From contig JAJJXM010000046.1 of assembly GCA_024516155.1 (NCBI GenBank), positions 62,001 through 126,000 on the forward strand: DNA of 64,000 bases. The letters run 5' to 3'. Source of the stretch: Pyronema omphalodes (taxonomy: Eukaryota > Ascomycota > Pezizomycetes > Pezizales > Pyronemataceae). The position numbers were made by a program, and so were the translations under genes. Below the pieces are notes generated by a model. The model was given only the letters and a program-made list of their open reading frames with translations, did not search any database and had not been told where the DNA came from. Below are positions 1,116-29,227 of the stretch, one piece after another (positions within the stretch are counted from its first letter, which is position 1; each line of letters starts with the position of its first letter).

Positions 1116-2452
1116 TACGTCGATGAACACAGTGAAGCAACAAACGTGCGCTTACCTAACGGCACCATAGTCACCCCTGGGACTCAAGGAGGCAGCAAGG
1201 ACGTGGTCCGGTGGATTGGCATACATTTTGATCGCAAACTTTCCTTCTCCCAACATGTAAAAATAAGACTGACGACCGCCGCTAGGTCCCTCAACGCCCT
1301 CCGCAGTTTGGTACGTCACGAAACAGGTCTGTCCCCCTCAGCGACCTGTACACTTTATCAAGCGTGTGTAACCTCTAGGTCGGATTTTGGCTCTGAGATC
1401 TGGTGGAATGGACAAAAAGGACTGGCCAGCACACTACAAACGCAACAAAACTCCGCCCTACGCCGCATACTAAACGCATTCACATCGACCCCCATAGTGG
1501 CCCTACACAACGAAGCCGCCATACCCCCCGTCGCAGTTCGCCTTCAACGCCGCAGCCGCAAATACGTTCTCCGCCTCCTCTCCCTCCCCCCTTCCCACCC
1601 CGTAGTTAGACGCTGCCCTTCCTCCTTCCCCGTGCCCAACCACTTCCCCACCTCCATATGTGACCCGTCCGAATATGACTACCCCTTGAACACCACCCAG
1701 AAAGCCCCCTCGCGCCTCGTTCGCATGCTCTGCTCCGTGAAGTCACACACCACACGGCAACAGCGACCCCCCCCCCTGCATTCTCAACAACGAGCACCGA
1801 AACCCCCGGTTTTCTCATCGGATTCGGATTCGCAGCACTCTGTTACGTTATTCTCTGAATTTTCAGGGAATTCTACGTTGTTTTTGTTGACTTTTGTCGC
1901 AAAATCAGAGTTTTCACAAGTTTTGGCTTACCCCACCTCACGAAATGTCGCCAAAACAACGACAGAACAACGCCCGACGATCGAAACGGTCCGAAAACGC
2001 GTACAATGTTCTAGCCGACCCTCCTCATGCTGGACCCAACCCTATTTTTGATGGAGGAGTTGGAATAGTTGATGAAGTTGATGGAAACTTCGCTGGAAAA
2101 CCCTTCCAGAGCGTGGTCTTGGCAGGATCACCAGTTCCTTCGGCTTCAACACACCAGCTACAAGCGACAACTGAACACAGCCGGTTCAGTACCTACCGTC
2201 GCTTGTGTGTATCCGCGATTAATGAGGCAGTTGCAGCTGATGACACCTATGCCATCCTGGATCAGCTGTTCCATGACAACTACGCCGAACTCACTGGAGC
2301 CAACTTCCTGGGGATACAACAGATCCACCGGGATACACAGCGAACCTTCAATACCCTCGATGAATCCATGCGCAAAAACAACGATGCGATACACGGCAGA
2401 TTCGACGTCATGATGACGAAATTCAACGATCTGCTCAACTGACACGGCAACG

Positions 2453-2480
2453 GCGACCCCCCCCCCTGCATTCTCAACAA
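2453..2480 (+). promoter_or_regulatory. Shared 5'-terminal oligo-C motif (D copy)
   Basis: The motif GCGA-C(9)-TGCATT followed by TCAACAAC lies about 20 bp inside the 5' end. LINE-A (28605-28633, minus) and LINE-B (43511-43540, minus) have the same arrangement of G(C/T)GA, C-run, TGC(A/C)TT and ACAAC at their 5' ends, although the following 5'UTRs are unrelated. Many non-LTR elements carry an internal RNA polymerase II promoter at the very 5' end. That this motif is such an element is inference. Confidence 0.55.
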
Positions 2481-2634
2481 CGAGCACCGAAACCCCCGGT
2501 TTTCTCATCGGATTCGGATTCGCAGCACTCTGTTACGTTATTCTCTGAATTTTCAGGGAATTCTACGTCGTTTTTGTTGACTTTTGTCGCAAAATCAGAG
2601 TTTTCACGAGTTTTGGCTTACCCCACCTCACGAA

Positions 2635-4089
2635 ATGTCGCCAAAACAACGACAGAACAACGCCCGACGATCGAAACGGTCCGAGAACGCGTACAATGTT
2701 CTAGCCGACCTTCCTCACGATGGATTTAATCCTACTTTCGATGGAAGAGATGGAAAAGTTGATGAAGTTGATGGAAACTTCGCTGGAGAGCCCTTCCAGA
2801 GCGTGGTCTTGGCACGATCACCAGTTCCTTCGGCTTCAACATCGCAGCAACAGGCGACAACTGAACACAGCCGGTTCAGTGACTACCGTCGCATGATGGT
2901 ATCTGCAATTAATAAGGCAGTCGCAGTTGACGACAACTACCTCACCCTAGATCAACTGTTTCTAGACAACGAAGCCGGACTCACTGGAGCCAGCTTCCTG
3001 GGGATACAACAGATCCACCAGGACACACAGCGACGCTTCAATACCCTCGATGACACCATACGCAACAACAGCGATGCGATGCGCCTCAGATTCGACGTCA
3101 TGATGACGAAATTCAACATTCTGATGGACGAAAACACGAAGCTGCGCGCACCCTACGGCTCTACACAGGCAGAAACAGCAGCTCTCAAGGCTGCTGTGGA
3201 CGCCCTGACGAGGAAAATCGACGAACAGCAACAAGTCATTTCGGCGCCCCCCTCACCGAACCTCACGGCCTCTTCCTCAGCGATGGAAGAGATGACTATG
3301 CAACTGTCCGTCGTCCAACATGACATTCAGGATGTCCTGGACGCTGTTCGCAACCCTCCTGGCAAGAGAAAGCGAAGGGGAAGCGACCAGAACACCGAAC
3401 CCACCTCACCGACAAACAGAAGACAGGTGAACCACAAACCGAGAGCGGCATCACCGGTGCGAAGCCTGATGCACTCAAAACATGCGACTACCGCCGCCCA
3501 GGACAAGCTTGATGCCCTCAAGCCTATGTCCCCCCTACCTCTCCTCGCGATCACGGAAACCGATGCGACACCGGAACCTCACCCTGACAGTCCATCTGCT
3601 CAGGACACACCTCTACCCGACGCCCCAAGCACTGCCCCTGCTGAGACGAACGGATGGAAGACTGTGGAGGCGAAGGCTGCACAGAGGAAGAAGCAGAAAG
3701 CGAAGGAGACGACACCTACGGCAGCGCCACCCAGCAAGACCCCTACAACAAAGAATGGTGGACGGGGAAAGAACACCCACCAACCCAGAACGACAACACC
3801 CTCTGCAAAGAAGACTTGGGCAGAAGTCGTCAAGAGCGGAGTCATCAACGTCCAGATTGTGCTTGGGAATGGCAATCTTGGACTGACAACACCACCGACA
3901 AGAAGGGGAGAGAGGCGAGGGGGAGCAGCGCGGAGGCTGAGGAAGAAGGAAGGAGAAGGGGAGAGAGGGGAGGAGAAGAGGGGCAGGGCGGGCCCGGGTG
4001 TCTCAAAGGGCAAAGAGTCAGGAGACACCGGCGGAGAAGGGGAGAGAGGAGAGGAGAGTGGGGGCACGGGGGGCCCGGCGGCTGTTTAA
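2635..4089 (+). CDS. D-family protein, 484 aa, coiled-coil ORF1p-like
   Basis: I chose the first ATG (MSPKQRQNNARR); the frame is open further upstream, but only from non-ATG codons. In order: a basic N-terminus; a variable acidic region (residues 25-120); a heptad-rich coiled coil (about 122-200, through FDVMMTKFN and ALKAAVDALTKKIDEQQQ); a Pro/Ser/Thr-rich linker with a KRKRRG basic patch; a GWKTVEAKA segment; KKTWAEVVKSG; and a Gly/Arg/Glu-rich basic tail. There is no endonuclease, reverse transcriptase, RNase H or CCHC knuckle. Coiled-coil trimerisation and basic RNA-binding tails are typical of LINE ORF1 proteins, so an RNA-chaperone or RNP role is plausible. I recognise no named family. 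Confidence 0.8.
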   Translation: MSPKQRQNNARRSKRSENAYNVLADLPHDGFNPTFDGRDGKVDEVDGNFAGEPFQSVVLARSPVPSASTSQQQATTEHSRFSDYRRMMVSAINKAVAVDDNYLTLDQLFLDNEAGLTGASFLGIQQIHQDTQRRFNTLDDTIRNNSDAMRLRFDVMMTKFNILMDENTKLRAPYGSTQAETAALKAAVDALTRKIDEQQQVISAPPSPNLTASSSAMEEMTMQLSVVQHDIQDVLDAVRNPPGKRKRRGSDQNTEPTSPTNRRQVNHKPRAASPVRSLMHSKHATTAAQDKLDALKPMSPLPLLAITETDATPEPHPDSPSAQDTPLPDAPSTAPAETNGWKTVEAKAAQRKKQKAKETTPTAAPPSKTPTTKNGGRGKNTHQPRTTTPSAKKTWAEVVKSGVINVQIVLGNGNLGLTTPPTRRGERRGGAARRLRKKEGEGERGEEKRGRAGPGVSKGKESGDTGGEGERGEESGGTGGPAAV

Positions 4090-5930
4090 CTTTGCTTTGG
4101 TTTTGTTTTTGCTTTGTGGAGGAAATACAGGAGGAAAAATGGTTAAAAATGGGAGGGGAAGGGAGGAGGAAAGGGAGGAGCCCGGCGAGGCGGCCTCTGT
4201 GCAAGCAGGGCACTTGGAACATCAGACGCGCTTGGACAAGAAACCCCCGTAGTATACAGTGGGGACAGACCCCACAACCACAACGATCAAGAGGAGGAGA
4301 CTGGTAGAGGTGGAGACTGGGTTTTTGCTTTTACATTTCTTTCTTCTTCTCTTTTGTATTTATCTGTCCCTTGTCATAACCTTCGGGTTGCAAACAAGTA
4401 ATGAGAGAACAAACAAACAATCAACGATCTGCTCTTCGAAAACGCGACGCTGCGCACAGCATACGACTCTACACAGGCAGAAACAGCAGCTCTCAAGGCT
4501 GCTGTGGACGCCCTGACGAAGAAAATCGACGAACAGCAACAAGTCATTTCGGCGCCCCCCTCACCGAACCTCACGGCCTCTTCCTCAGCGATGGAAGAGA
4601 TGACTATGCAACTGTCCGTCGTCCAACACGACATTCAGGATGTCCTGGACGCTGTCCGCAACCCTCCTGGCAAGAGAAAGCGAAGGGGAAGCGACCAGAA
4701 CACCGAACCCACCTCACCAACGACCAGAACACCGGTCAACCACAAACCGAGAGCTGCATCACCGGTGCGAAGCCTGATGCACTCGAAACATGCGACTACC
4801 GCCGCCCAGGACAAGCTTGATGCCCTCAAGCCTATGTCCCCCCTACCTCTCCTCGCGATCACGTCAACCGATGCGACACCGGAACCTCACCCTGACACTT
4901 CATCTGCTCAGGACACACCTCCACCCGACGCCCCAAGCACTGCCCCTGCTGAGACGAACGGATGGAAGACTGTGGAGGCGAAGGCTACGCAGAAGAAAGA
5001 GATGAAAGCGCAGGAGACGAGACCTACGGCAGCGACACCCAGCAAGACCCCTACAACGAAGAATGGTGGAAGGGGAAAGAATACCCACCAACCCAGACAG
5101 ACAACCCCCTCCGCAAAGAAGACTTGGGCAGAAGTCGTCAGGAGCGGAGGCATCAACGTCCAGATTGTGCTTGGGAATGGCAATCTTGGACTTACAACAC
5201 CACCGACAAGAAGGGGAGAGAGGCGAGGCGGGGCAGCGAGAAGGCTGAGGAAGAAGGAGGGAGAAGGGGAGAGAGGGGAGGAGAAGAGAGGCAGGGCGGG
5301 ACCGGGTGTTTCAAAGGGCAAAGAGTCAGGAGACACCGGCGGAGGAGTTGAGAGAGGGGAGGAGAGTGGGGGCGTAGGTGGCCCAGCGGCTGTTTAACTT
5401 TGCTTTGGTTTTGTTTTTGCTTTGTGGGGGAAATAAAGGCGGAAAGATGGTTAAAAATGGGAGGGGAAGGGTGGAGGACATGGGGGAACGACCCGGCGAG
5501 GTGGCCTCCGAGCGTACAGGGCTCCTGGAACAGACGACGCTTGACGAACAAAGCACAACGAGATTTGGGGGTCTACAACCCCACACCCTAACGACAAGCT
5601 CTGGGGCATACCCAGTGAGAGCTCGGCCTGACACCCGGGTTTCTTAATTTTGTATTTACTGTAGATTCCGCCATAACCTTACGGTTGGATGCGTGTATGA
5701 GTTAATAAATTAATAAATAAATGCTCCGCTCCGTCGGTCAGTGGATATTACCAGACGACGTAATCGAGGACACGGGGAACCCAAATCCCACCCCGTGGAT
5801 AAGCTCACCCCTACGAATAAAGATATCCTCCCTCCCCAAACCCGAAGCCGCCGTCGAACACATCTCGCTGATCCGCGACCTGAGTGACGACAAAAACAAC
5901 ATTATCGCCTATACAGACGGCTCCCAACTC

Positions 5931-7929
5931 ATGAGGCTTCCTGACGGCAACGGCGACCCCCCCCCTGCACTCTCAACAACGAGCACCGAAACCCCCGGTT
6001 TTCTCATCGGATTCGGATTCGCAGCACTCTGTTACGTTATTCTCTGAATTTTCAGGGAATTCTACGTTGTTTTTGTTGACTTTAGTCGCAAAATCAGAGT
6101 TTTCACGAGTTTTGGCTTACCCCACCTCACGAAATGTCGCCAAAACAACGACAGAACAACGCCCGACGATCGAAACGGTCCGAAAACGCGTACAACGTTC
6201 TAGCCGACCTCCCTCATGATGGATCTAATCCTACTTTCGATGGAAGAGATGGAAAAGTTGATGAAGTTGATGGAAACTTCGCTGGAAAGCCCTTCCAGAG
6301 CGTGGTCTTGGCAAGATCACCAGTTCCTTCGGCTTCAACTCAGCAGCAACAAGCAACAACTGAACAAAGCCGGTTCAGTAACTACCGTCGCAATGTTGTA
6401 TCTGCGATTACTCGGGCAGCCCTGGTTGATGACAATTATGCCTCCCTTGACCAATTTTTTTATGACAGCTACCCCGAAGTCACTGGAGCCAGCTTCCTGG
6501 GGATACAACAGATCCACCAGGACACACAGCGACGCTTCAATACCCTCGCTGACACCATACGCAACAACAGCGATGAGATGCGCCACCGATTCGACGTTAT
6601 GATGACGAAATTCAACGTTCTGCTCGGCGAAAACACGAAGCTGCGCGCAGCATACGACTCTACGCAGGCAGAAACAGCAGCTCTCAAGGCTGCTGTGGAC
6701 GCCCTGACGAAGAAAATCGACGAACAGCAACAAGTCATTTCGGCGCCCCCCTCACCGAACCTCACGGCCTCTTCCTCAGCGATGGAAGAGATGACTTTGC
6801 AACTGTCCGTCGTCCAACATGACATTCAGGATGTCCTGGACGCTGTTCGCAACCCTCCTGGCAAGAGAAAGCGAAGGGGAAGCGACCAGAACACCGAACC
6901 CACCTCACGGACAAACAGAAGACCGGTGAACCACAAACCGAGAGCGGCATCACCGGTGCGAAGCCTGATGCACTCGAAACATGCGACTACCGCCGCCCAG
7001 GACAAGCTTGATGCCCTCAAGCCTATGTCCCCCCTACCTCTCCTCGCGATCACATCGACCGAAGCGACACCGGAACCTCACCCTGACAGTCCATCTGCTC
7101 AGGACACACCTCTACCCGACGCCCCAAGCACTGCCCCTGTTGAGACCGACGGCTGGAAGACTGTGGAGGCAAAGGCTACACAGAGGAAGAAGCAGAAAGC
7201 GAAGGAGACGACACCTACGGCAGCGCCACCCAGCAAGACCCCTACAACAAAGAATGGTGGACGGGGAAAGAACACCCACCAACCCAGAACGACAACCTCC
7301 TCTGCAAAGAAGACTTGGGCAGAAGTCGTCAAGAGCGGAGGCATCAACGTCCAGATTGTGCTTGGGAATGGCAATCTTGGACTGACAACACCACCGACAA
7401 GAAGGGGAGAGAGGCGAGGGGGAGCAGCGAGGAGGCTGAGGAAGAAGGAAGGAGAAGGGGAGAGAGGGGAGGAGAAGAGGGGCAGGGCGGGCCCGGGTGT
7501 CTCAAAGGGCAAAGAGTCAGGAGACACCGGCGGAGGAGGGGAGAGAGGAGAGGAGAGTGGGGGCACGGGTGGCCCGGCGGCTGTTTAACTTTGCTTTGGT
7601 TTTGTTTTTGCTTTGTGGAGGAAATAAAGGCGGAAAAAATTGGTTAAAAATGGGAGGGGAAGGGAGGAGGAAAGGGAGGAGCCCGGCGAGGCGGCCTCTG
7701 TGCAAGCAGGGCACTTGGAACATCAGACGCGCTTGGACAAGAAACCCCCGTAGTATACAGTGGGGACAGACCCCACAACCACAACGATCAAGAGGAGGAG
7801 ACTGGTAGAGGTGGAGACTGGGTTTTTGCTTTTACATTTCTTTCTTCTTCTCTTTTGTATTTATCTGTCCCTTGTCATAACCTTCGGGTTGCAAACAAGT
7901 AATGAGAGAACAAACAAACAAACAAACAA
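5931..7929 (+). mobile_element. D element D2 (LINE-B-type 3' end), full length
   Basis: This complete 1999-bp copy sits in the RNase H region of LINE-A A1. The perfect 14-bp duplication acggctcccaactc flanks it (5917-5930, 7930-7943). It begins with a few extra bases, then the oligo-C motif, carries an open D ORF, and ends with the LINE-B 3' module and an (ACAA)n tail. The insertion lies next to the codons of the first RNase H Asp. Confidence 0.93.
6134..7588 (+). CDS. D-family protein, 484 aa (copy D2)
   Basis: This is an open 484-codon copy of the D ORF, starting at the same ATG as in D1b. It has the same layout: basic start, variable region, coiled coil (~122-200), P/S/T-rich linker, TWAEVVKSGG segment and R/G/E-rich tail. 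Compared with D1b, differences cluster at residues ~80-115 (RRNVVSAITRAALVDD here versus RRMMVSAINKAVAVDD there). The C-terminal ~250 residues differ at few positions. No frameshift or stop is seen, in contrast to several neighbouring LINE ORFs. A role as an RNP protein of the element is inference. Confidence 0.8.
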   Translation: MSPKQRQNNARRSKRSENAYNVLADLPHDGSNPTFDGRDGKVDEVDGNFAGKPFQSVVLARSPVPSASTQQQQATTEQSRFSNYRRNVVSAITRAALVDDNYASLDQFFYDSYPEVTGASFLGIQQIHQDTQRRFNTLADTIRNNSDEMRHRFDVMMTKFNVLLGENTKLRAAYDSTQAETAALKAAVDALTKKIDEQQQVISAPPSPNLTASSSAMEEMTLQLSVVQHDIQDVLDAVRNPPGKRKRRGSDQNTEPTSRTNRRPVNHKPRAASPVRSLMHSKHATTAAQDKLDALKPMSPLPLLAITSTEATPEPHPDSPSAQDTPLPDAPSTAPVETDGWKTVEAKATQRKKQKAKETTPTAAPPSKTPTTKNGGRGKNTHQPRTTTSSAKKTWAEVVKSGGINVQIVLGNGNLGLTTPPTRRGERRGGAARRLRKKEGEGERGEEKRGRAGPGVSKGKESGDTGGGGERGEESGGTGGPAAV

Positions 7930-10900
7930 ACGGCTCCCAACTCGAAGGAAAAACAGGCGCCGGATACTGCATCACCTCAGGTTTCCCCCGTCAAGTCAAC
8001 GAATCCATCCCCATGGGCACGACCACGGAAGTGTTCGACGCCGAGCTACGAGCAATTCACGACTGCCTCGAGATGTGCCACAAAATCATCTCCCACAACC
8101 ACCTCCGACGCCGCCGGATACACCTCTTTACAGACAACCAGGCGGCCATCCTCCGCGCCTCCCGCACAACATATGGTCCGGGCCAAGAGCTCACCCGCGC
8201 TATACACGACATCGCCTCCTCCCTCCGTTCCAAAGACACATCCGTCACCTTACATTGGGTCCCAGGACATACCGATATACCCGGGAACGACCAAGCCGAC
8301 CTCCTCGCCAAAACTGCAACCACCCTAACTCCCCCCTCTTCGCTACCGGTCTCCCTGTCCTGGATACGCCGACAGATTCACGATCAATACATCCAAGACT
8401 GGACGACCTGGTACTCCTCCGCGCCGAAACTTAAAACGTACGACGCCCCACACCGTCGACGCCTCGACCATGCCTACACGGCCCTACCACGCAAACTATC
8501 AACCGCAATCTTGGGATTGCGAACCGGACACGGTTATTTTTTGGACTGCCTTGCTCATCCCCCCACCGCCCAATACCCCTCCCGCTCGTGCTCATGCCCC
8601 CTTCACCCTCCGCAATCCCCCAAACATCTCATTCTCTCGTGCCCCTACTTCACTTCCCAACGGACCGAACTGCGACGTACACTGAAAATCCCACGACGAC
8701 GACACCTCACACTACCGACAATCCTACATACCACCGCCGGAACCAAAGCACTGTCCGCTATGATCTCAGAGACCAAGATAGCGACTGCGGAGTGGGCTCA
8801 CGCAAGGTTAAGTAAACTCCCCGCTGAGGAGGACACATCTGCTACGCTGACAACAGACTGGGGGACGCTGCTGGGCCTGACGGACGAGCACGCGGTTACC
8901 TCTAATAATTAAAAAAAAAAAAATAATAATAAAAAGAAGTAGGAGGAGGACGGAGGGAGGGAGAAGCGGGAGGCGAGAGCGGAGAGAGAGACGAGGGAGA
9001 GGGGAGATGGAGGACGCGGACGATGATGAGGAGAGAGTGGAGACGGGAGACTGGGAGAGCGGAGGCGCGGTTGTTGTGGAGAATGGAGTATTGTGTTTTT
9101 TCTTTTTGAAACGGGAATGAAAGAGAGGCGAGGAGTCGAGGGAGAGGGGAGACGCGGTGGAGACGGACGGGAGGAGCACGAATGAGGCGAGTGCGAGATG
9201 GTGACGCGGAGAGAAGTGGACGGAGTGGGAAGATGGATGGCTGGCGAGCCGAGAGGGAGGAGCGTGGTGAAGGGCGAGGGGAGGGACGTAGAGTAGGGTA
9301 GTGGCACAGGGGAGAGAGGTGCGATGGGGGGGCGTTGACCCGGGGGAGTTATATCTTCTTTTCTTTTCTTTTTGCTTGTTTGTTTTTGCTTTGTGGAGGA
9401 AATAAAGGTGGAAAAACGGTTAAAAAAGGGAGGGGAAGAGTGGAGGAAATGGGGGAACGACCCGCCGAGGTGGCCTCCGAGCGTACAGGGCTCCTGGAAC
9501 AGACGACGCTTGACGAACAAAAGCACAACGAGACTTGGGGGTCTACAACCCCACACCCTAACGACAAGCTCTGGGGCATACCCAGTGAGAGCCTGGCCCG
9601 ACACCCGGGTTTCTTAATTTTGTATTTACTGTAGATTCCGCCATAACCTTACGGTTGGATGCGTGTATGAGTTAATAAATAAATAAATAAATAAAAGGAC
9701 GACGATCGCTACGTCGTCAATGTAGCTAGGTGTCCAGGCGTACGGGTGTACCTGCGCTAGTTCGTCGAATAATGGGCGGAGGTATAATAAGAAAAGTATG
9801 GGTGATGCAGGGGAACCTTGTGGGATGCCTGTTTGCACTGGGCGTTGCGTGTCAGTTCGCCCATCGAACGCTAGAGCGATCGTGCGATCTGCGAGGAAAG
9901 ACTGGCACCACGATACTACTGGTTGCGGGCACCCAAGCTGTCGTAATGTTTGTTGGAGGCGGTCAGCAGAGACGTTGTCGAACGCTCCACGAACATCGAG
10001 GAAGAGGGCAGAGGTTAGCATTCCGTGAGATTTCCCAATCTCAACGTCGTGCACCAGCGCCATCGCCGCGTCAATTGCTGATCTCTGCGGGCGTCCACCT
10101 ATTTGGTCTCTATGTAGTAAGTCGTGAGAGTCTGCCATCGTGCCTAGGCGAGTGGCCATTAGTTTTTCGAGGGTCTTCCCAAGGCAGTTTAGGAGCGCAA
10201 TCGGACGGTATGCCTTTGGATTGCTGTAATCCGGCTTGTTAGGTTTGGCGATAATGACTGTGGTGGCCTGGCGCCAGCATCGCGGATGGTAGCCTACCGT
10301 CCCTAATGTGGCGTAGAGGTTGTTCATGTGTTCGGGGATGGCAAGGTATGCTTGGCGTAGGCAAGCGAATGTGAGCCCATCGGGTCCGGGCGCCTTCTTC
10401 GGCGAGGAGGAGAATATCGCTGCTTCTACCTCTGTCGGTGTAAAGGTTGTCCACTGCAACTCGCGGCGCGGGGGGAGGACGGACGGAGGCGGTGGTGGCG
10501 GCGGCGGGGGAAACAACTTTTGGAAGGCCTCTACCTTTGCGTCGAAGGAGCTGCAGATTGTTTCTTGGCCGTTTATCATTGCGCGGAGGTTTGGTGTTAG
10601 CTGAGCACGCCGAGGGTTGGTGTACCTAAACGCCTGCCACACATCGGGTCCTTCGGCTTGGGAAAGGTATTCCTTCCACTTTGCATCTTTCGCCGTTTGA
10701 ATGGTCCTGTGGTATTCGTTTCGGTGTTGTTTGTAGTTTAGGTGGGATCTATCGTCACGTTTGCGTTTCCACTTACGTCTTGCTTTGGTCATCTTTTTCC
10801 TTGCCTCGGTGACTTCTGCGGTCCACCATCTTTTCGATTGTGGGGTCACTTGTAGTACGTGGGTGGACGTAGTCGCGGCATTAAGGATGGCATCACGTAT

Positions 10901-11206
10901 TGACTCCGCCCACGCATCGAGGTTGTCTGTGGTAGGGTGGTTGCGGTATTGTGTCCATGATGGTGTGAGGGCTAAGCACGAGGCACGGAGGGTTTCGGCG
11001 AAGAGCTCCCAATCCGTCTTTTTCCAGTTCAGTCGGTTTGTTGGGGGGGTTGTTTCAGCGTCTGGGTGGGTTGTGTGCACTTCGAAACGTATGACTTCAT
11101 GGTCAGATCCCGTAGCGTTGTCGTCGTCAATTGCCCAGTTGATTGTTTCCTCTGCCATGTGGGGCGATGCTAGGGTCAGGTCGAGGACGGAACAACTGCG
11201 GCCTTG

Positions 11207-13193
11207 TTCGTTTGTTTGTTCTCTCATTACTTGTTTGCAACCCGAAGGTTATGACAAGGGACAGATAAATACAAAAGAGAAGAAGAAAGAAATGTAAAAG
11301 CAAAAACCCAGTCTCCACCTCTACCAGTCTCCTCCTCTTGATCGTTGTGGTTGTGGGGTCTGTCCCCACTGTTACTACGGGGGTTTCTTGTCCAAGCGCG
11401 TCTGATGATCCAAGTGCCCTGCTTGCACAGAGGCCGCCTCGCCGGGCTCCTCCCTTTCCTCCTCCCTTCCCCTCCCATTTTTAACCATTTTTCCTCCTTT
11501 ATTTCCTCCTCAAAGCAAAAACGAAACCAAGCAAAGTTAAACAGCCGCCGGGCCACCCGTGCCCCCACTCTCCTCTCCTCTCTCACCCCCTCCGCCGGTG
11601 TCTCCTGACCCTTTGCCCTTTGAGACACCCGGGCCCGCCCTGCCCCTCTTCTCCTCCCCTCTCTCCCCATCTCCTTCCTTCTTCCTCAGCCTTCTCACTG
11701 CTCCCCCTCGCCTCTCTCCCCTTCTCGTCGGTGGTGTTGTCAGTCCAAGATTGCCATTCCCAAGCACAATCTGGACGTTGATGCCTCCGCTCTTGACGAC
11801 TTCTGCCCAAGTCTTCTTTGCAGAGGAGGTTGTCGTTCTGGATTGGTGGGTATTCTTTCCCCGGCCACCATTCTTCGTTGTAGGGGTCTTGCTGGGTGTC
11901 GCTGCCGTAGGTGTCGTCTCCTTCGCTTTCTGTTTCTTCCTCTGTGTAGCCTTTGCCTCCACAGTCTTCCATCCGTCGGTCTCAGCAGGGGCAGTGCTTG
12001 GGGCATCGGGTAGAGGTGTGTCCTGAGCAGATGGACTGTCAGGGTGAGGTTCCGGTGTCGCTTCGGTCGACGTGATCGCGAGGAGAGGTAGGGGGGACAT
12101 AGGCTTGAGGGCATCAAGATTGTCCTGGGCGGCGGTAGTCGCATGTTTCGAGTGCATCAGGCTTCGCACCGGTGATGCCGCTCTCGGTTTGTGTTTCACC
12201 GGTCTTCTGTTTGTCGGTGAGGTGGGTTCGGTGTTCTGGTCGCTTCCCCGTCGCTTTCTCTTGCCAGGAGGGTTGCGAACAGCGTCCAGGACATCCTGAA
12301 TGTCATGTTGGACGACGGACAGTTGCATAGTCATCTCTTCCATCGCTGAGGAAGAGGCCGTGAGGTTCGGTGAGGGGGGCGCCGAAATGACTTGTTGCTG
12401 TTCGTCGATTTTCTTCGTCAGGGCGTCCACAGCAGCCTTGAGAGCTGCTGCTTCTGCCTGTGTAGAGTCGTATGCCGCGCGCAGCTTCGTGTTTTCGCCG
12501 AGCAGATCGTTGAATTTCGTCATCATGACGTCGAATCTGCTGTGTATCGCATCGCTGTTGTTGCGGATGGATTCATCGAGGGTATTGAAGCGTCGCTGTG
12601 TGTCCTGGTGGATCTGTTGTATCCCCAGGAAGCTGGCTCCAGTGACTTCGGGGTAGCTGTTATAAAACAGTTGCTCAAGGGAGGCATAATTGTCATCAAC
12701 CAGGGCTGCCTGATTAATGGCAGATACAATATTGCGACAGTATGTACTGAACCGGCTTTGGTCAGTTGTCGCTTGTTGCTGGTGTGTTGAAGCCGAAGGA
12801 ACTGGTGATCCTACCAAGACCACGCTCTGGAAGGGTTTTCCAGCGGAGTTTCCATCAACTTCATCAACTTTTCCATCTCTTCCATCGAAAGTAGGATTAG
12901 ATCCATCATGAGGAAGGTCGGCTAGAACATTATACGCGTTTCCGGACCGTTTCGATCGTTGGGCGTTGTTCTGTCGTTGTTTTGGCGACATTTCGTGAGG
13001 TGGGGTAAGCCAAAACTCGTGAAAACTCTGATTTTGCGACAAAAGTCAACAAAAACAACGTAGAATTCCCTGAAAATTCAGAGAATAACGTAACAGAGTG
13101 CTGCGAATCCGAATCCGATGAGAAAACCGGGGGTTTCGGTGCTCGTTGTTGAGAATGCAGGGGGGGGGTCGCCGTTGCCGTGTCCTTTTTTTT
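11207..13193 (-). mobile_element. D element D3 (LINE-B-type 3' end), full length
   Basis: This complete 1987-bp copy lies on the minus strand inside LINE-B B1 ORF2. The 13-bp duplication aactgcggccttg is present at 11194-11206 and 13194-13206. It has the (TTTG)n tail complement on the left, the TTCG-loop hairpin at 11239-11250, an open D ORF, and the oligo-C motif (G-run at 13161-13169) at its 5' end. The 5' junction has an extra T-run before the target sequence, consistent with untemplated bases added at the end of reverse transcription. Confidence 0.93.
11537..12991 (-). CDS. D-family protein, 484 aa (copy D3)
   Basis: This is the fourth D ORF and the third that is uninterrupted; it is again 484 codons from the conserved ATG (12989-12991). 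Domain order is as in D1b and D2, with the coiled coil near residues 122-200 and the R/G/E-rich tail at 430-484. Residues 80-115 differ again (CRNIVSAINQAALVDD), while the coiled coil and tail are nearly unchanged. The identical length across four diverged copies argues that the protein is or recently was under selection. Its function is not known from the sequence. Confidence 0.8.
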   Translation of the reverse strand: MSPKQRQNNAQRSKRSGNAYNVLADLPHDGSNPTFDGRDGKVDEVDGNSAGKPFQSVVLVGSPVPSASTHQQQATTDQSRFSTYCRNIVSAINQAALVDDNYASLEQLFYNSYPEVTGASFLGIQQIHQDTQRRFNTLDESIRNNSDAIHSRFDVMMTKFNDLLGENTKLRAAYDSTQAEAAALKAAVDALTKKIDEQQQVISAPPSPNLTASSSAMEEMTMQLSVVQHDIQDVLDAVRNPPGKRKRRGSDQNTEPTSPTNRRPVKHKPRAASPVRSLMHSKHATTAAQDNLDALKPMSPLPLLAITSTEATPEPHPDSPSAQDTPLPDAPSTAPAETDGWKTVEAKATQRKKQKAKETTPTAATPSKTPTTKNGGRGKNTHQSRTTTSSAKKTWAEVVKSGGINVQIVLGNGNLGLTTPPTRRGERRGGAVRRLRKKEGDGERGEEKRGRAGPGVSKGKGSGDTGGGGERGEESGGTGGPAAV

Positions 13194-14500
13194 AACTGCG
13201 GCCTTGGTTGTAGTAGTAGGTGGGAATGTCAGGGACGGACACGAGGGTCCAGTCTCGTTGTTCGATGAGGTCAACTATTTCAGTGGCGCGGATGGGGGAA
13301 CGTGTGGAGGAGTTCCACAGGGCATGGTGAGCGTTGAGGTCACCTGTGATGATGCACCTGCGGGGGAGGGGGAGGGGGGTGAGGGCTCTCGGGATGGTAT
13401 AAATATTGCTTTCGGGGTGTTTTTCGTTGTACATATTAAGAAGAAACAAAGAAGGAATTAAGTCGGTGCCTACCTCAAGGACCTGGAGGTCAGGATCCGC
13501 GCATATATCGGTGCGCTGAGAAACCCTGAGGTATGGGTTTGTCCTGGTCACATAGGCGGCTGTTCTGTTGGTGGTTCTATCCCCACGCGGTGGCAAGACC
13601 AGTGTGAACGATGGGTGTGTGGTGGCGTATGTTATGTCGGTAATGTGAATTTCTTGTATTAGGATTATGTCGGCTGTGTTGTGTGCGCTATTCAGCAGCG
13701 CATCGAGTGCTGTTCGTTGTCGGTTCACGTTGTGGGAGACGATCCGTATGGTTGCTGCCAGTCTGTGGTAGCTAGACATGGGCGTTCATCTCAGTGTCTC
13801 TGTCGGCTGGGTTGGGTGGGGCGGCGGCGGGGTTTTGTGACGCTGTCCAGGCTTCTTTGAATATGCGGATGCGTACGGGGCATTGCTTGCTGAAGCCTGG
13901 GTGGTCGAGGTCGGGGAGGTTGGCGTCCGCGCAGTTTTTGCAATGGTATCTAGTGTGCTCACAACTCTTACCTTTGCTTTGGGGGCAGTCGTTGCAGGCG
14001 TGGTCGTCCGTGGGGTGGTTCTGGCCGCAGATGCCGCAGGTGGGGCCTTGCGGTCCAGTGCAGTTGGTATAGTGGTGGCCAAAGAGCAAGCAGCGCCGAC
14101 ACTGGTCGGTCCGTCGGGCAGAGTGGTACTCGGTGACTCTTCGGGGCTCGAAGAGTACCATGACTCGTTTGCGCTTCAGGAGTGCGAGCTCTTCGGCGGT
14201 ACGTCCCGCTATAACCACACTGGACGCTTCTATCAGAATCCGTATCCACGGTTACTGACGACAGGCAGCGCGGGGTTTTCGGCGGCGAGGAGGGCGGCGG
14301 CGGGTTAGGTAAGGCTGGTAAGTTGGGAATGGGCAAGGGTTTGTGGGCTTGGGAAATCACAGGTGAGTTTGGCGAGATGGGATATCACAAGGGAACTTTT
14401 GTAGATAGGATTGTGGTAAATAGAAACTTGATTGCGTGAAGAAATAAACTACATACAAATTTCCTCCTCTTATACTTGTTCCTTCATGACTCGTGACTCA

Positions 14501-20400: not shown

Positions 20401-22454
20401 TAGTTGCCAGTAATCTGGCGGAGGAGACGTTATCGAAAGCTCCTCGTACATCTAAAAATAGGGCAGACGTCACGAAGCAATTTCCCGCGTTAACTTCTAC
20501 CTCATGCGTCAGTGCCATCGCAGCGTCAATTGCCGAGCGTTTTGGGCGCCCGCCAATCTGGTCCTTATGCAGGATTTCGTGCGACTCCCGCCATAAGGCT
20601 GAGCCGGGTCGCCATGAGTTTTTCTAGCACCTTGCCCAAGCAGTTGAGTAGGGCGATCGGGCGGTAATGCCTTTATGGCGCTATAGTCCGGTTTGTTTGG
20701 TTTAGGTATCACCACCGTCGTGGCCTCTCGCCAGCTCCGCGGATGATATCCTTTCGTTCCTAAGGTTGAGTACAGGGCGTTGAAAACTTTGGGGACTGCA
20801 TCGTACGCCTTCCTAAGGCACGCGAACGTGATGGAGTCCGGGCCGGGGGCTTTCTTGGGGGAGGATGTTGTGATAGCGGTACGAATTTCTTCGGGGGTGA
20901 ATGTTTTCCAGGGGAGTTGGGGGTTGGGTCGTGAGGTGCGTGTGGGGGGGGCAGCTGGGGGGGGAGGGAATAACGCCTTGAAAGGCCTCTACCTTACTGT
21001 CGAAGTCGACGCATATCCTTCTCCATTCCTCCTACCTGTGTCTTGATCGGTGGTGTCAATTGAGCGCGGCGCGGGTTTGTATATCGGAAGGCCGCCCATA
21101 TGTCTGGTCCTTCCACCGCGGCTAAGTATTCCTTCCACATGGAGTCCTTTGCATGTCGGACTTTCCTGTAGTGGGCGTTTCGAGACTGTTTGTATTCGGC
21201 GAGGTGTTGGGGGAAGGCGGGTCTGTTTCCATCTCCTCCTGGCCCGGGTCATGTCTTTACGTGTCAGGCGTACCTCCTCCGTCCACCATCTCTTCGACCG
21301 CAGGGTTGGGGTGAGGGTAGGTGTTGATATCGTGGCGGCGGTTTGGATAGAGTCGGCGAAGGAGGGCAGCCCATTCGTCGAGGTTCTCGGCGGAGGGGTT
21401 GGCTCGGAGGTGGGACCATCGGGGGTAGGAAGCTTCGGTGAGGCGTTGCAATTCTTCGGTGAAGGTCTCCCAGTCCGTCTTGCGCCAGTTTAGTCGTGTA
21501 GTGTCGCCGGCGGTGTTGTGGTGGTCTGGGTGTAAGGAGTTGATTTGGAAACGGATCACCTCGTGGTCCGATCCCGTGGCAATGCCGTCGTCAATGGCCC
21601 AAGAAGAAATTTCCCTTGCCATCGCCGGGGCTGCCAGAGTCAGGTCGAGGACCGAAGAGCCCGATCCGTTTTTATTTATTTATTTATTAACTCATACACG
21701 CATCCAACCGTAAGGTTATGGCGGAATCTACAGTAAATACAAAATTAAGAAACCCGGGTGTCAGGCCAGGCTCTCACTGGGTATGCCCCAGAGCTTGTCG
21801 TTAGGGTGTGGGGTTGTAGACCCCCAAGTCTCGTTGTGCTTTTTGTTCGTCAAGCGTCGTCTGTTCCAGGAGCCCTGTACGCTCGGAGGCCACCTCGCCG
21901 GGTCGTTCCCCCATTTCCTCCACCCTTCCCCTCCCTTTTTTAACCGTTTTTCCACCTTTATTTCCTCCACAAAGCAAAAACAAACAAGCAAAAGAAAAGA
22001 AAAGAAGATATAACTCCTCCGGGTCAACGCCCCCCCACCGCACCTCTCTCCCCTGTGCCACTACCCTACTCTACGTCCCTCCCCTCGCCCTTCACCACGC
22101 TCCTCCCTCTCGGCTCGCCGGCCGTCCATCGTCCCACTCCGTCCACTTCTCTCCGCGTCACCATCTCGCACTCTCCTCATTCGTGCTCCTCCCGTCCGTC
22201 TCTACCGCGTCTCTCCTCTCCCTCGACTCCTCGCTTCACTCTCATTCCCGTTTCAAAAAAAGAAAAAACACAACACTCCATTCTCCACAACAACCACGCC
22301 TCCGCTCTCCCAGTCTCCCGTCTCCACTCTCTCCTCGTCATCGTCCGCTTCCTCCTTCTCCCCTCTCCCTCGTCTCTCTCTCCGCTCTCGCCTCCCGCTT
22401 CTCCCTCCCTTCGTCCTCCTCCGGCTTCTTTTTATTATTATTTTTTTTTTTTTT

Positions 22455-25400
22455 TTAATTATTAGAGGTAACCGCGTGCTCGTCCGTCAGGTCCAGCAGC
22501 GTCCCCCAGTCTGTTGTCAGCGTAGCAGATGTGTCCTCCTCAGCGGGGAGTTTACTTAACCTTGCGTGAGCCCACTCCGCAGTCGCTATCTTGGTCTCTG
22601 AGATCATAGCGGACAGTGCTTTGGTTCCGGCGGTGGTGTGTAAGATTGTCGGTAGTGTGAGGTGTCGTCGTCGTGGGATTTTCAGTGTGCGTCGCAGTTC
22701 GGTCCGTTGGGAAGTGAAGTGGGGGCACGAGAGAATGAGATGTTTGGGGGATTGCGGAGGGTGAAGGGGGCATGAGCACGAGCGGGAGGGGTATTGGGCG
22801 GTGGGGGGATGAGCAAGGCAGTCCAAAAAATAACCGTGTCCGGTTCGCAATCCCAAGATTGCGGTTGATAGTTTGCGTGGTAGGGCCGTGTAGGCATGGT
22901 CGAGGCGTCGACGGTGTGGGGCGTCGTATGTTTTAAGTTTCGGCGCGGAGGAGTACCAGGTCGTCCAGTCTTGGATGTACTGATCGTGAATTTGTCGGTG
23001 TATCCAGGACAGGGAGACCGGTAGCGAAGAGGGGGGAGTTAGGGTGGTTGCAGTTTTGGCGAGGAGGTCGGCTTGGTCATTCCCGGGTATGTCGGTATGT
23101 CCTGGGACCCAATGTAAGGTGACGGATGTGTCTTTGGAGCGGAGGGAGGAGGCGATGTCGTGTATAGCGCGGGCGAGCTCTTGGCCCGGACCATATGTTG
23201 TGCGGGAGGCGCGGAGGATGGCCGCCTGGTTGTCTGTAAATACGTGTATCCGGCGGCGTCGGAGGTGGTTGTGGGAGATGATTTTGTAGCACATCTCGAG
23301 GCAGTCGTGAATTGCTCGTAGTTCGGCGTCGAACACTTCCGTGGTCGTGCCCATGGGGATGGATTCGTTTACTTGACGGGGGAAACCTGAGGTGATGCAG
23401 TATCCGGCGCCTGTTTTTCCTTCGAGTTGGGAGCCGTCTGTATAGGCGATAATGTTGGTTTTGTCGTCACTCAGGTCGCGGATCAGCGAGAGGTGTTCGA
23501 CGGCGGCTTCGGGTTTGGGGAGGGAGGATATCTTTATTCGTAGGGGTGAGCTTATCCACGGGGTGGGATTTGGGTGAGCCGTGTCCTCGATTACGTCGTC
23601 TGGCAATATCCACTGACTGACGGAGCGGAGCATGCGAACGAGGCGCGAGGGGGCTTTCCGGGTGGTGTTCCAGGGGTAGTCATATTCGGACGGGTCACAT
23701 ATGGAGGTGGGGAAGTGGTTGGGCACGGGGAAGGAGGAAGGGCAGCGTCTAACTACGGGGTGGGAAGGGGGGAGGGAGAGGAGGCGGAGAACGTATTTGC
23801 GGCTGCGGCGTTGAAGGCGAACTGCGACGGGGGGTATGGCGGCTTCGTTGTGTAGGGCCACTATGGGGGTCGATGTGAATGCGTTTAGTATGCGGCGTAG
23901 GGCGGAGTTTTGTTGTGTTTGTAGTGTGCTGGCCAGTCCTTTTTGTCCAGTCCACCAGATCTCAGAGCCAAAATCCGACCTAGAGGTTACACACGCTTGA
24001 TAAAGTGTACGGGTCGCTGAGGGGGACAGACCTGTTTCGTGACGTACCAAACTTCGGAGGGCGTTGAGGGACCTAGCGGCGGCCGTCAGTCTTATTTTTA
24101 CATGTTGGGAAAAGGAAAGTTTGCGATCAAAATGTATGCCAATCCACCGGACCACGTCCTTGCTGCCTCCTTGAGTCCCAGGGGTGACTATGGTGCCGTT
24201 AGGTAAGCGCACGTTTGTTGCTTCGCTGTGTTCATCGATTCGCGACTTATGGAAGTGCAGCATCTCCGATTTGGAATCGTCGAATGCTACCGCGTTTGTC
24301 TGCGCCCAGTTGAATGCGGTGCGAGCGGCTGCTTCCAGGGCGCGCGCATTTTGTTCTCTCGTTCGTCCATGGGCCACCAAGGCAACGTCGTCTATATAGC
24401 TAGGGGTCCACAGGGTCGGGTGTTCGGATTGTAAGGCGTCAAAGAGGGGGCGAAGGTAAATGAGGAAGAGTATTGGCGACGCGGGGGATCCCTGGGGAAT
24501 GCCGGTTTGAATTGGTCGCTGTGAATCTGTTCTGCCGTCAAAGGATAGGGCGGTTGTGCGGTCACTTAAGAATGAGGAACACCACGATATCACCGCTTGT
24601 GGGCAGCCGAGTGAGTGCATAGTTGCCAGTAATCTGGCGGAGGAGACATTATCGAAAGCTCCTCGTACATCTAAAAATAGGGCAGACGTCACGAAGCGAT
24701 TTCCTGCGTTAACTTCTACCTCATGCGTCAGTGCCATCGCGGCGTCAATTGCCGAGCGTTTTGGGCGCCCGCCAATCTGGTCCTTATGCAGGATGTCGTG
24801 CGACTCCGCCATAAGGCTGAGCCGGGTCGCCATGAGTTTTTCTAACACCTTGCCCAAGCAGTTGAGTAAGGCGATCGGGCGGTAGGCCTTTATGGCGCTA
24901 TAGTCCGGTTTGTTTGGTTTAGGTATCACCACCGTCGTGGCCTCTCGCCAGCTCCGCGGGTGATATCCTTTCGTTCCTAAGGTTGAGTACAGGGCGTTGA
25001 AAACTTTGGGGACTGCATCGTACGCCTTCCTAAGGCACGCGAACGTGATGGAGTCCGGGCCGGGGGCTTTCTTGGGGGAGGATGTTGTGATAGCGGTACG
25101 AATTTCTTCGGGGGTGAATGTTTTCCAGGGGAGTTGGGGGTTGGGTCGTGAGGTGCGCGTGGGGGGGGCAGCTGGGGGGGGAGGGAATAACGCTTGAAAG
25201 GCCTCTACCTTACTGTCGAAGTCGACGCATACCTTCTCCATTCCTCCTACCTGTGTCTTGATCGGTGGTGTCAATTGAGCGCGGCGCGGGTTTGTATATC
25301 GGAAGGCCGCCCATATGTCTGGTCCTTCCACCGCGGCTAAGTATTCCTTCCACATGGAGTCCTTTGCATGTCGGACTTTCCTGTAGTGGGCGTTTCGAGA

Positions 25401-26456
25401 CTGTTTGTATTCGGCGAGGTGTTGGGGAAGGCGGGTCTGTTTCCATCTCCTCCTGGCCCGGGTCATGTCTTTACGTGTCAGGCGTACCTCCTCCGTCCAC
25501 CATCTCTTCGACCGCGGGGTTGGGGTGAGGGTAGGTGTTGCTATCGTGGCGGCGGTTTGGATAGAGTCGCGAAGGAGGGCAGCCCATTCGTCGAGGTTCT
25601 CGGCGGAGGGGTTGGCTCGGAGGTGGGACCATCGGGGGTAGGAAGCTGTGGTGAGACGTTGCAATTCTTCGGTGAAGGTCTCCCAGTCCGTCTTGCGCCA
25701 GTTTAGTCGTGTAGTGTCGCCGGCGGTGTTGTGGTGGTCTGGGTGTAAGGAGTTGATTTGGAAACGGATCACCTCGTGGTCCGATCCCGTGGCAATGCCG
25801 TCGTCAATGGCCCAAGAAGAAATTTCCCTTGCCATCGCCGGGGCTGCCAGAGTCAGGTCGAGGACCGAAGAGCCCGATCCGTCTCGATAGTGGTAAGTAG
25901 GAACGTCCGGGACGTTTACCAGTTGCCAGTGATGGTCTTCCATCAGTTCCACCAGCACGTCCGCTCTCGCTGGTCTGCGTGCGTGGGAGTTCCACAGAGG
26001 GTGATGGGCATTGAGGTCCCCTGTGATCACGCAACGGTGGGGGAGAGTGAGGGGGGTAAGGGAGCGGGGGACGGTATATAGTTTTGTTTGGGGGTCTTTT
26101 TCATTGTAGATGTTTAAGAGGTAAAAGGAGGGAATGAGTGTGGTGCTGACCTCGAGTACCTGGAGGTCAGGATCTCCGCTGACGTCCGGTCTTGGTGTGA
26201 CTCGAACGTGTGGGTTGAGGCGGGAGATATAGGCAGCAGTGCGATTGACTTTGTGGTGGCTGCGGGGGGGAAGTAACAAAAGGAAATCTGGATGTGTGAT
26301 TGCGTACCGGGGATCTTTAACGTTAATCTCTTGTACCAGCAATATGTCTATTTTGGATCCTGCTGAGTTCAGCAGTGTTGTTAGTGCGGTGGCGCTGCGA
26401 TTCGTGTTATGTGACACGATGCGAAGGGTCGCCGCTGATGAGTCGTATCTATTCAT
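22455..26456 (-). CDS. LINE-A ORF2: endonuclease, reverse transcriptase, RNase H (1333 aa)
   Basis: This is the complete polyprotein for target-primed reverse transcription. Residues ~1-230 are an apurinic-type endonuclease (LLVQEINVKD, ITGDLNAHHPLWN, ATGSDHEVIRF). Residues ~440-720 are the reverse transcriptase (AYRPIALLNCLGK, FLDVRGAFDN, GIPQGSPASP, and the YIDDVAL catalytic box near 685). Residues ~1000-1130 are RNase H (AYTDGSQ, FDAELRAIHD, FTDNQAAI, HWVPGHTDIPGNDQAD). A C-terminal CSCPLHP...LILSC Cys/His motif follows. APE, RT and RNase H in this order is typical of Tad1/I-group LINEs. The ATG overlaps the ORF1 stop, so translation probably depends on termination-reinitiation. Confidence 0.95.
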   Translation of the reverse strand: MNRYDSSAATLRIVSHNTNRSATALTTLLNSAGSKIDILLVQEINVKDPRYAITHPDFLLLLPPRSHHKVNRTAAYISRLNPHVRVTPRPDVSGDPDLQVLEVSTTLIPSFYLLNIYNEKDPQTKLYTVPRSLTPLTLPHRCVITGDLNAHHPLWNSHARRPARADVLVELMEDHHWQLVNVPDVPTYHYRDGSGSSVLDLTLAAPAMAREISSWAIDDGIATGSDHEVIRFQINSLHPDHHNTAGDTTRLNWRKTDWETFTEELQRLTTASYPRWSHLRANPSAENLDEWAALLRDSIQTAATIATPTLTPTPRSKRWWTEEVRLTRKDMTRARRRWKQTRLPQHLAEYKQSRNAHYRKVRHAKDSMWKEYLAAVEGPDIWAAFRYTNPRRAQLTPPIKTQVGGMEKVCVDFDSKVEAFQALFPPPPAAPPTRTSRPNPQLPWKTFTPEEIRTAITTSSPKKAPGPDSITFACLRKAYDAVPKVFNALYSTLGTKGYHPRSWREATTVVIPKPNKPDYSAIKAYRPIALLNCLGKVLEKLMATRLSLMAESHDILHKDQIGGRPKRSAIDAAMALTHEVEVNAGNRFVTSALFLDVRGAFDNVSSARLLATMHSLGCPQAVISWCSSFLSDRTTALSFDGRTDSQRPIQTGIPQGSPASPILFLIYLRPLFDALQSEHPTLWTPSYIDDVALVAHGRTREQNARALEAAARTAFNWAQTNAVAFDDSKSEMLHFHKSRIDEHSEATNVRLPNGTIVTPGTQGGSKDVVRWIGIHFDRKLSFSQHVKIRLTAAARSLNALRSLVRHETGLSPSATRTLYQACVTSRSDFGSEIWWTGQKGLASTLQTQQNSALRRILNAFTSTPIVALHNEAAIPPVAVRLQRRSRKYVLRLLSLPPSHPVVRRCPSSFPVPNHFPTSICDPSEYDYPWNTTRKAPSRLVRMLRSVSQWILPDDVIEDTAHPNPTPWISSPLRIKISSLPKPEAAVEHLSLIRDLSDDKTNIIAYTDGSQLEGKTGAGYCITSGFPRQVNESIPMGTTTEVFDAELRAIHDCLEMCYKIISHNHLRRRRIHVFTDNQAAILRASRTTYGPGQELARAIHDIASSLRSKDTSVTLHWVPGHTDIPGNDQADLLAKTATTLTPPSSLPVSLSWIHRQIHDQYIQDWTTWYSSAPKLKTYDAPHRRRLDHAYTALPRKLSTAILGLRTGHGYFLDCLAHPPTAQYPSRSCSCPLHPPQSPKHLILSCPHFTSQRTELRRTLKIPRRRHLTLPTILHTTAGTKALSAMISETKIATAEWAHARLSKLPAEEDTSATLTTDWGTLLDLTDEHAVTSNN
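26449..26456 (-). promoter_or_regulatory. ORF1/ORF2 translational overlap ATGAATAG
   Basis: On the minus strand the 8-nt string ATGAATAG contains the ORF2 start (ATG, 26456-26454) and the ORF1 stop (TAG, 26451-26449). LINE-B has ATGTCTAG in the same role at 41419-41412 and 13779-13772. The fixed spacing in two diverged families suggests coupling by termination-reinitiation. Confidence 0.7.
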
Positions 26457-28359: not shown

Positions 28360-28604
28360 CGGAATTTCGGAATAAGTTTGTTTGGCGGTAGCGACAAGGA
28401 ATCCGCGATTGAAATGATGGTTGTTGATGTGGGTGGAGGGTGGTGTTGATGGAACCGGTTCGCGGGGCTTTTCTCAGGGGCCCGAAAACTCTTTTTCGAT
28501 GAAAACTCAACGAAAAAGAGAGGGCCTGATCTGGAAATGCTGCGAATAGGTAATTCGGGGCTGCCGAACAATAATCCGCGATAAAATCTTGCGATTTCGG
28601 CGTG

Positions 28605-28633
28605 GTTGTTGAAAAGGCAGGGGGGGGGTCGCT
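28605..28633 (-). promoter_or_regulatory. 5'-terminal oligo-C motif (LINE-A copy A3)
   Basis: On the minus strand: AGCGA, a run of 9 C, TGCCTTTTCAACAACC. It is about 15 bases from the 5' end of the element. A2 has the same motif near 31384-31411 with 7 C. See the matching motif in D elements and LINE-B. A promoter or initiator role is inference. Confidence 0.55.
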
Positions 28634-29227
28634 CTTTGCTGGGTGTACGAGCCCGATCCGTCTCGATAGTGGTAAGTAGGAACGTCCGGGACGTTTACCA
28701 GTTGCCAGTGATGGTCTTCCATCAGTTCCACCAGCACGTCTGCTCTCGCTGGTCTGCGTGCGTGGGAGTTCCACAGAGGGTGATGGGCATTGAGGTCCCC
28801 TGTGATCACGCAACGGTGGGGGAGAGTGAGGGGGGTAAGGGAGCGGGGGACGGTATATAATTTTGTTTGGGGGTCTTTTTCATTATAGATATTTAAGAGG
28901 TAAAAGGAGGGAATGAGTGTGGTGCTAACCTCGAGTACCTGGAGGTCAGGATCTCCGCTGACGTCCGGTCTTGGTGTGACTCGAACATGTGGGTTGAGGC
29001 GAGAGATATATGCAGCAGTGCGATTGACTTTGTGGTGGCTGCGGGGGGGAAGTAACAAAATGAAATCTGGATGTGTGATTGCGTACCGGGGATCTTTAAT
29101 GTTAATCTCTTGTACCAGCAATATGTCTATTTTGGATCCTGCTGAGTTCAGCAGTGTTGTTAGTGCGGTGGCGCTGCGATTCGTGTTATGTGACACGATG
29201 CGGAGGGTCGCCGCTGATGAGTCGTAT

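Follow-up and report, generated by a model that had tools for sequence, protein, structure and literature searches.

The window analysed here is a 64,000-nucleotide stretch of the genome of Pyronema omphalodes (assembly GCA_024516155.1, contig JAJJXM010000046.1, positions 62,001 to 126,000 of the forward strand). It contains four copies of an element of about 2 kb, termed D, together with long interspersed nuclear elements (LINEs) whose 3' ends are shared by these copies. The D copies were placed by BLASTn with D2 as the query (Table 1) and all of them were found to lie within other repeats. A 484-codon open reading frame (ORF) is read in D1b, D2 and D3, while that of D1a is split by the insertion of D1b, and each copy is flanked by a target-site duplication (TSD). 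Our alignments show that the 3' end of D1a is that of LINE-A and that the 3' ends of D1b, D2 and D3 are those of LINE-B, with BLASTn identities of 95.5% over 314 bp and 95.7% over 326 bp. A Pfam search of the D2 protein found no endonuclease (EN), reverse transcriptase (RT) or ribonuclease H (RNase H), the only models observed being weak ones below the cut-off, coiled coils included. A preliminary description of this DNA had placed the four copies of about 2 kb with duplications of 13-14 bp, one 484-codon protein without these three enzymes, and LINE-A-like and LINE-B-like ends distributed as above, and on all of these points it was found to be accurate.

Table 1. Features of the D copies and of the partner LINEs, in window coordinates (TSDs were read from the sequence; UTR, untranslated region)
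Feature	Position	Strand	TSD	Evidence
D1a, 5' part: leader and first portion of the ORF, broken by D1b	1739-2436	+	ATGCTCYGCTCCGT, 1725-1738 with 5721-5734, 13/14 matching	BLASTn, ORF list, TSD
D1b, full-length, LINE-B 3' end, nested within D1a	2437-4420	+	14 bp, 2423-2436 with 4421-4434	BLASTn, 3' alignment, TSD
D1b ORF, 484 codons	2635-4089	+		ORF list
D1a, 3' part: remaining ORF, shared module, LINE-A 3' end, TAAA tail	4435-5720	+		BLASTn, 3' alignment
D2, full-length, LINE-B 3' end, sits in a LINE-A ORF2	5931-7929	+	14 bp, 5917-5930 with 7930-7943	BLASTn, 3' alignment, TSD
D2 ORF, 484 codons	6134-7588	+		ORF list, Pfam, AlphaFold
D2 shared junction module (TTTTTGC..GGGGAAGGG)	7605-7664	+		alignment
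D2 3' tail derived from LINE-B: TTCG hairpin, CAAA repeats	7665-7929	+		BLASTn, 3' alignment
D3, full-length, LINE-B 3' end, between two pieces of a LINE-B ORF2	11207-13193	-	13 bp, 11194-11206 with 13194-13206	BLASTn, TSD
D3 ORF, 484 codons	11537-12991	-		ORF list
LINE-A 3' UTR; last ~314 bp match the D1a end	8912-9690	+		BLASTn
LINE-A partner: ORF1 26449-28359, ORF2 22455-26456 with EN, RT, RNase H	21671-28640	-		ORF list, Pfam
LINE-B partner: ORF2 37499-41419 with EN, RT, RNase H	36668-43560	-		ORF list, Pfam

Genome-wide counts cover the 60.8-Mb assembly of 232 contigs, and all of the evidence is the sequence of this one genome. Exact patterns joining the D stop region to the terminal hairpin divided the D copies into three main classes: 111 are B-ended, 97 have an A-type hairpin and 35 carry a third end, C. 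Reversed control patterns for A and B gave 0 matches. The preliminary description had assigned the tails of two LINEs to one non-autonomous lineage keeping its own protein and had proposed a count of the two classes. The lineage and its protein are upheld by our results but the number two is not, as the ends comprise A, B, C, a further type E and variants (A' and B') and were exchanged repeatedly; a simple A/B dichotomy is ruled out by end C and the further variants. The bare D stop 16-mer occurs 328 times in the genome, the TTAAGG hairpin was counted in 9 D copies, and end C as a whole occurs 99 times at no more than one mismatch. Among 100 of the 328 stop anchors listed, 37 places (hand count) carry no exact A or B hairpin, and 19 of these (L081-L099) were classified. 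End C was observed at five of them (L081, L086, L088, L089 and L098), A-like variants at three (L082, L084 and L087) and B or B-like ends with an altered hairpin or tail at five (L085, L090, L094, L097 and L099), while six were truncated, interrupted or at a contig end (L083, L091, L092, L093, L095 and L096). The fourth tail type, E, was found at L080 (contig C215:1560-4016, minus strand), where an A-like hairpin is combined with a different interior. L080 is counted among the 97 copies with an A-type hairpin, where another entry from C215 matches it in length and module.

The tails read have in common a CATAACC-loop-GGTTG hairpin, slightly altered in some copies, and they end in (T/C)AAA repeats. 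Outside the hairpin A and B differ strongly from each other, and C is different again. The terminal repeat was observed to track the end class in the 34 copies listed, being TAAA for A and CAAA for B and C. Several regular arrangements of D ends were also noticed. On contig C189 (1178570-1188135) D-B and D-A copies repeat at a spacing of exactly 4628 bp, which suggests tandem duplication of a block holding both classes. C-ended D pairs lie about 16.76 kb apart in opposite orientation at C166:136889/153653 and C173:440396/457159 and represent segmental or assembly duplication, and stop anchors spaced by 675 bp on C151 (158747, 159422 and 160097) apparently form a tandem array of D 3' ends.

LINE-A and LINE-B, which we take to be Tad-type LINEs, both have EN, RT and RNase H in ORF2 according to Pfam. 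In the LINE-B partner the B end occupies 36668-36990 and ORF1 lies in two overlapping frames. End C was found after the end of a LINE ORF2 at L014 and L036, and this LINE-C is represented only by ~200 C-terminal residues of ORF2 and the 3' UTR. The A and B ORF2 proteins are 62% identical over 1302 residues, and over its ~200 residues C is 58% identical to A and 66% to B. Because the C ORF2 is distinct from both, a third LINE family is the likely donor of end C. When the LINE-C end of L036 was used as the query, 44 rows were obtained, and 37 of them (hand count) span almost all of it. L111 was considered as a source of the LINE-C ORF1 and proved to be a LINE-A 5' end adjoining another LINE.

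TSDs were examined in full-length A- and B-ended copies, the C-ended copies having too little flank. These full-length copies were taken from the first contigs of the list together with chosen places, and the choice of copies was non-random (L001-L008 are those nearest to D2, and for L009-L038 the A-hairpin copies were sorted by contig and the first 30 taken). A TSD was found in 27 of the 29 copies, as compared with 10 of 171 mismatched control pairs. All nine A-ended copies and 18 of the 20 B-ended ones have it, with none found for L007 and L049. These duplications argue for insertion by target-primed reverse transcription (TPRT) and against a crossover after insertion. At the 5' junctions of the 29 copies, many were observed to carry a short additional string (for example ACACC or an A-rich run) between the TSD and the common start, which are perhaps non-templated additions made at the close of TPRT.

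A tree of D bodies was built from 970 columns of 65 copies (B 32, A 22, C 10 and E 1) and was midpoint-rooted; no hairpin was recognised in 6 of 97 anchored copies, and copies with low body coverage and identical copies were then removed to leave these 65. The end class shifts at least 7 times on this tree, where the minimum for four classes is 3, and 6 gains or losses are needed for B and 5 for C. A single B clade was rejected at a cost of 131 log-likelihood units (p-AU, from the approximately unbiased test, 1e-7) and a single C clade at a cost of 112 units (p-AU 0.0001), while A forms one side of a branch with support of 96/87. Near-identical copies were observed to group within end classes. 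Four quick trees from separate ORF segments of 39 intact ORFs gave 6-8 class changes each, with 2 to 4 changes for A versus the rest.

The points at which the tails change were found in a region that D has in common with its partners. D, LINE-A, LINE-B and LINE-C share a module of ~60 bp (TTTTTGC..GGGGAAGGG), which is followed by ~70 bp of patchier similarity. The D2 module is closest to that of LINE-A (55/60 columns, compared with 53/61 for C and 52/65 for B), and for the four window copies the match is 53-55 of 58-60 columns to LINE-A, 51-53 of 59-61 to C and 50-52 of 63-65 to B. Given so narrow a margin, and a tree rooted by midpoint alone, this offers a weak hint that A was the ancestral D end and we do not claim this. 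The D copies exit the shared module at several different points. In most of the B-ended copies read, the switch to B lies after GGGGAAGGG. B-like sequence is already present at TGGCTAAAC in L054, L059, L065, L067, L070 and L099; in L090 it is reached slightly ahead of TGGCTAAAC, and in L079 the B sequence begins earlier still, at GGAAACAAAGG. Among 100 of the 111 B places, TGGCTAAAC occurs in 15 (hand count). The LINE-A-like AAAAAAGGG occurs in 12 of the 97 A-hairpin rows (hand count), a difference of one base that is weak when taken alone.

Two main kinds of C-ended copy were observed, one passing directly into C and the other following B up to GGGCACTGGAACA and then C. An exact 34-mer spanning this B-to-C joint occurs 24 times in the genome. 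By coordinates it is present in 12 of the 35 C-ended D rows and in one B-ended row (L056), and among the matches listed three more lie 121-139 bp from further D stop anchors. If the joint arose in D, then one lineage switched its tail more than once. Mosaic ends that run from B to a C-like sequence and back to B were found in L094 and L056.

The D ORF is under purifying selection. It is 482-484 codons long and intact in 41 of the 56 distinct copies that have a start codon and the 3' anchor. For 39 distinct intact ORFs the ratio of nonsynonymous to synonymous changes (N/S) outside a variable part was 0.52 of the spectrum-matched neutral value (confidence interval 0.40-0.67, codon bootstrap), and in the variable part, residues 76-165, it was 0.79 of that value (0.63-0.96). 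This segment is hypervariable, as seen when L012, L016, L020, L023, L024, L028 and L036 are compared with D2, and has a synonymous divergence (dS) of 0.38, about five times the 0.08 of the rest of the ORF, and a ratio of nonsynonymous to synonymous divergence (dN/dS) of 0.64. Positive selection as its sole cause is ruled out because synonymous divergence is raised as well, and the raised dS fits an old, exchanged cassette better than fast protein change alone. Residues 76-165 therefore apparently form an old exchangeable coiled-coil cassette. As an example, a strongly divergent version (TTTRSLY..) is common to seven A-ended copies which the body tree does not unite in a single clade, although the p-AU of 0.019 is weak here as the group was named after it had been seen. 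Furthermore, residues 76-100 of L107, which has a C end, are the same as those of the A-ended L013. The AlphaFold model of the D2 protein has a mean predicted local distance difference test score (pLDDT) of 47.8, with helices at 76-98 and 103-203 and little order beyond residue 244; it is usable only in the helical part (76-203), residues 244-484 being of low confidence. The D protein may be a Gag-like coiled-coil protein that binds RNA and oligomerises, with a disordered basic tail.

We consider it probable that D is a protein-coding, non-autonomous element of the kind lacking long terminal repeats (non-LTR), that it is moved by several LINEs and that template jumps in the course of TPRT have given it new tails. 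For LINEs it is established that TPRT is initiated at the RNA 3' end. A LINE enzyme would thus begin on the 3' end of its own RNA and would then jump to a D RNA within the ~60-130 bp module common to D and the LINEs. The product would be a D body with the tail of that LINE, full TSDs and a junction in the module, which is what we see. Such re-tailing would have been repeated with at least three LINE families (A, B and C), the re-tailed copies then being amplified. The elements, their ends and duplications, the selection on the ORF, the repeated changes of class and the several junctions are seen in the data; the jump itself, the LINE that moves each class and the role of the protein are inferred. 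A broader picture may also be drawn, in which D is a modular multi-host retroparasite with its own selected coiled-coil protein, repeatedly re-tailed from at least three LINE families and shuffling a hypervariable coiled-coil cassette; this we put forward tentatively, at slightly less than an even chance.

Several points weigh against re-tailing by template jumps. The TSDs show that finished chimeras were inserted by TPRT and do not alone show that the chimeras formed during TPRT, while gene conversion could yield the same junctions with the TSDs unbroken. LINE-C is known from its 3' part alone, with its RT portion not seen, and 8 of the 24 B-to-C joints are at untyped places, so that the joint may also exist in a LINE. 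On the body tree, well-supported branches alone force no more than three gains or losses for B, three for C and one for A, and A versus the rest needs only one change on the tree of the C-terminal body. D bodies also recombine internally, which weakens any single tree and makes it an approximation.

In an alternative without template jumping, genomic copies of D and of the LINEs exchanged their 3' ends by ectopic recombination or by gene conversion, and LINE enzymes then amplified the chimeras. We regard this as unlikely. It is favoured by the internal mosaicism of D, seen in the raised dS of the cassette and in class changes that differ between ORF segments, by the mosaic ends of L094 and L056, which need two exchanges, and by the nesting that places D copies side by side. 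However, the exchange takes in the extreme 3' end while matching TSDs are retained. What was observed is D bodies bearing LINE tails, and no search was made for the opposite arrangement.

It is equally doubtful that D descends from an autonomous LINE and kept its ORF1, as a true half-LINE similar to HAL1. Compared with the LINE 5' ends, the D leader is 65% identical to LINE-A over 153 bp (E 5e-10) and 72% identical to LINE-B over 67 bp; a C run makes up part of this resemblance, which is limited to the first 70-150 bp of the leader. The protein has the coiled-coil and basic-tail look of ORF1 proteins. The D ORF, however, gave no significant match to the ORF1 of LINE-A or LINE-B (best BLASTp E 0.64; HHalign probability at most 0.1, from single LINE sequences and hence of limited depth). 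The preliminary description had proposed both a half-LINE and a HAL1 parallel; because of this result the first is unproven as a statement of descent, and the second is functional at best.

No RT ORF was found between the D ORF and the tail in the D copies examined. Matches to a LINE ORF2 were observed downstream of 25 of the 101 distinct anchored copies, at least 329 bp past the stop anchor and beyond the D tail, except at L092 and in one L013 alignment. These pieces begin at many different ORF2 residues, a pattern that insertions of D into LINEs would produce, as is the case for D2. For example, L068 has a complete D tail and TSD followed by the start of a LINE-A ORF2. At L092 (contig C44:7950-8570) the tail is cut and a LINE-B ORF2 adjoins it directly from residue 1116, past the RT, and L013 gave two alignments, with starts at 205 and 331. 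In line with the preliminary description, no full-length element with an RT ORF after the D ORF was found among the 101 copies.

Tail exchange could also be a neutral by-product. In that case recognition by the LINEs would be confined to the common hairpin and the terminal repeat, any LINE could move any D, and the partner would not be set by the tail class. This appears rather improbable to us. The hairpin and (T/C)AAA repeats are indeed shared by the tails, but the sequences past the hairpin are very different between A and B and differ again in C, the repeat unit tracks the class, and near-identical copies cluster in classes. Finally, the notion that D1a alone gained its A end once through a post-insertion accident, which the single A-ended copy in the window would allow, is practically out of the question: it is refuted by the 97 D copies with an A-type hairpin and by the TSDs in all nine full-length A-ended copies tested, so that the view of the D1a end taken in the preliminary description stands. 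Elsewhere in the window, positions 32173-36232 contain Gag- and pol-like ORFs in several frames that have, by eye, the look of a long terminal repeat (LTR) retrotransposon.

The junctions of the D family partly record the order of its tail changes. The family makes it possible to test how specific LINE enzymes are for 3' ends and whether a parasite can escape the loss or restriction of its host LINE by taking a new tail, and, with three tails found naturally on the same type of body, substrates for trans-mobilisation assays are already at hand. A selected protein that switches cassettes also raises the question of why an element that borrows its enzyme keeps a Gag-like protein. If the broader picture drawn above is true, a modular retroparasite could change its enzyme partner and its self-assembly specificity while the rest of the element is unchanged.

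Among known systems, HAL1 elements are non-autonomous and protein-coding without EN or RT, and their ORF derives from the ORF1 of L1, whereas no relationship was detected between the D ORF and the ORF1 of LINE-A or LINE-B. HeT-A, at the telomeres of Drosophila, is a Gag-only element that depends on the RT of another element. D differs from it by inserting into interspersed repeats with TSDs and by swapping tails. With regard to its Gag, the D ORF has no match to the ORF1 of LINE-A or LINE-B, the LINE-C ORF1 being outside the comparison. Nor is D similar to a short interspersed nuclear element (SINE), as it is ~2 kb long with a selected ORF of 482-484 codons; an Rfam scan of the window gave no match, and no search aimed at an RNA polymerase III promoter was made. 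The CORE-SINEs are described as having related bodies with L2, L3 or RTE tails and hence different LINE partners (PMC3747384, PMC3403934). They are short and non-coding, while D has an ORF, its tail classes occur side by side in one genome and its junctions partly order the events.

Chimeras of LINEs have been described in a fungus and in Drosophila, and template jumps by LINE RTs are reported, in a fungus among others (PMC2104539, PMC3414825). In the MINE (WEIRD-MGL) chimeras of Magnaporthe a foreign 5' part is joined to the 3' part of a LINE with duplications of 10-20 bp, which was explained by template switches in reverse transcription, and one case is tripartite (PMC2104539). In that account WEIRD does not code for protein and is no transposable element, with MGL the 3' donor of 31 of the 33 bipartite chimeras (PMC2104539). 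D, in contrast, encodes a selected protein, is itself the amplified family and has at least three LINE donors. In the R2/R1 hybrid short internally deleted elements (SIDEs) of Drosophila the 5' part of one LINE took the 3' end of another and then behaved as a substrate of the latter, with insertion at the R1 site and a 14-bp TSD (PMC3414825). In these hybrids, which are described as rare, an R2 ribozyme precedes the R1 3' sequence, and the abstract of that report mentions no protein of their own (PMC3414825), whereas D has a conserved ORF and hundreds of copies. Among the top results of a literature search, mostly open-access, no protein-coding family repeatedly re-tailed with three LINEs in one genome was found, which is weak evidence. 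Protein-only elements, mimicry of LINE tails and template-jump chimeras are each known, and in D they are combined in one abundant family.

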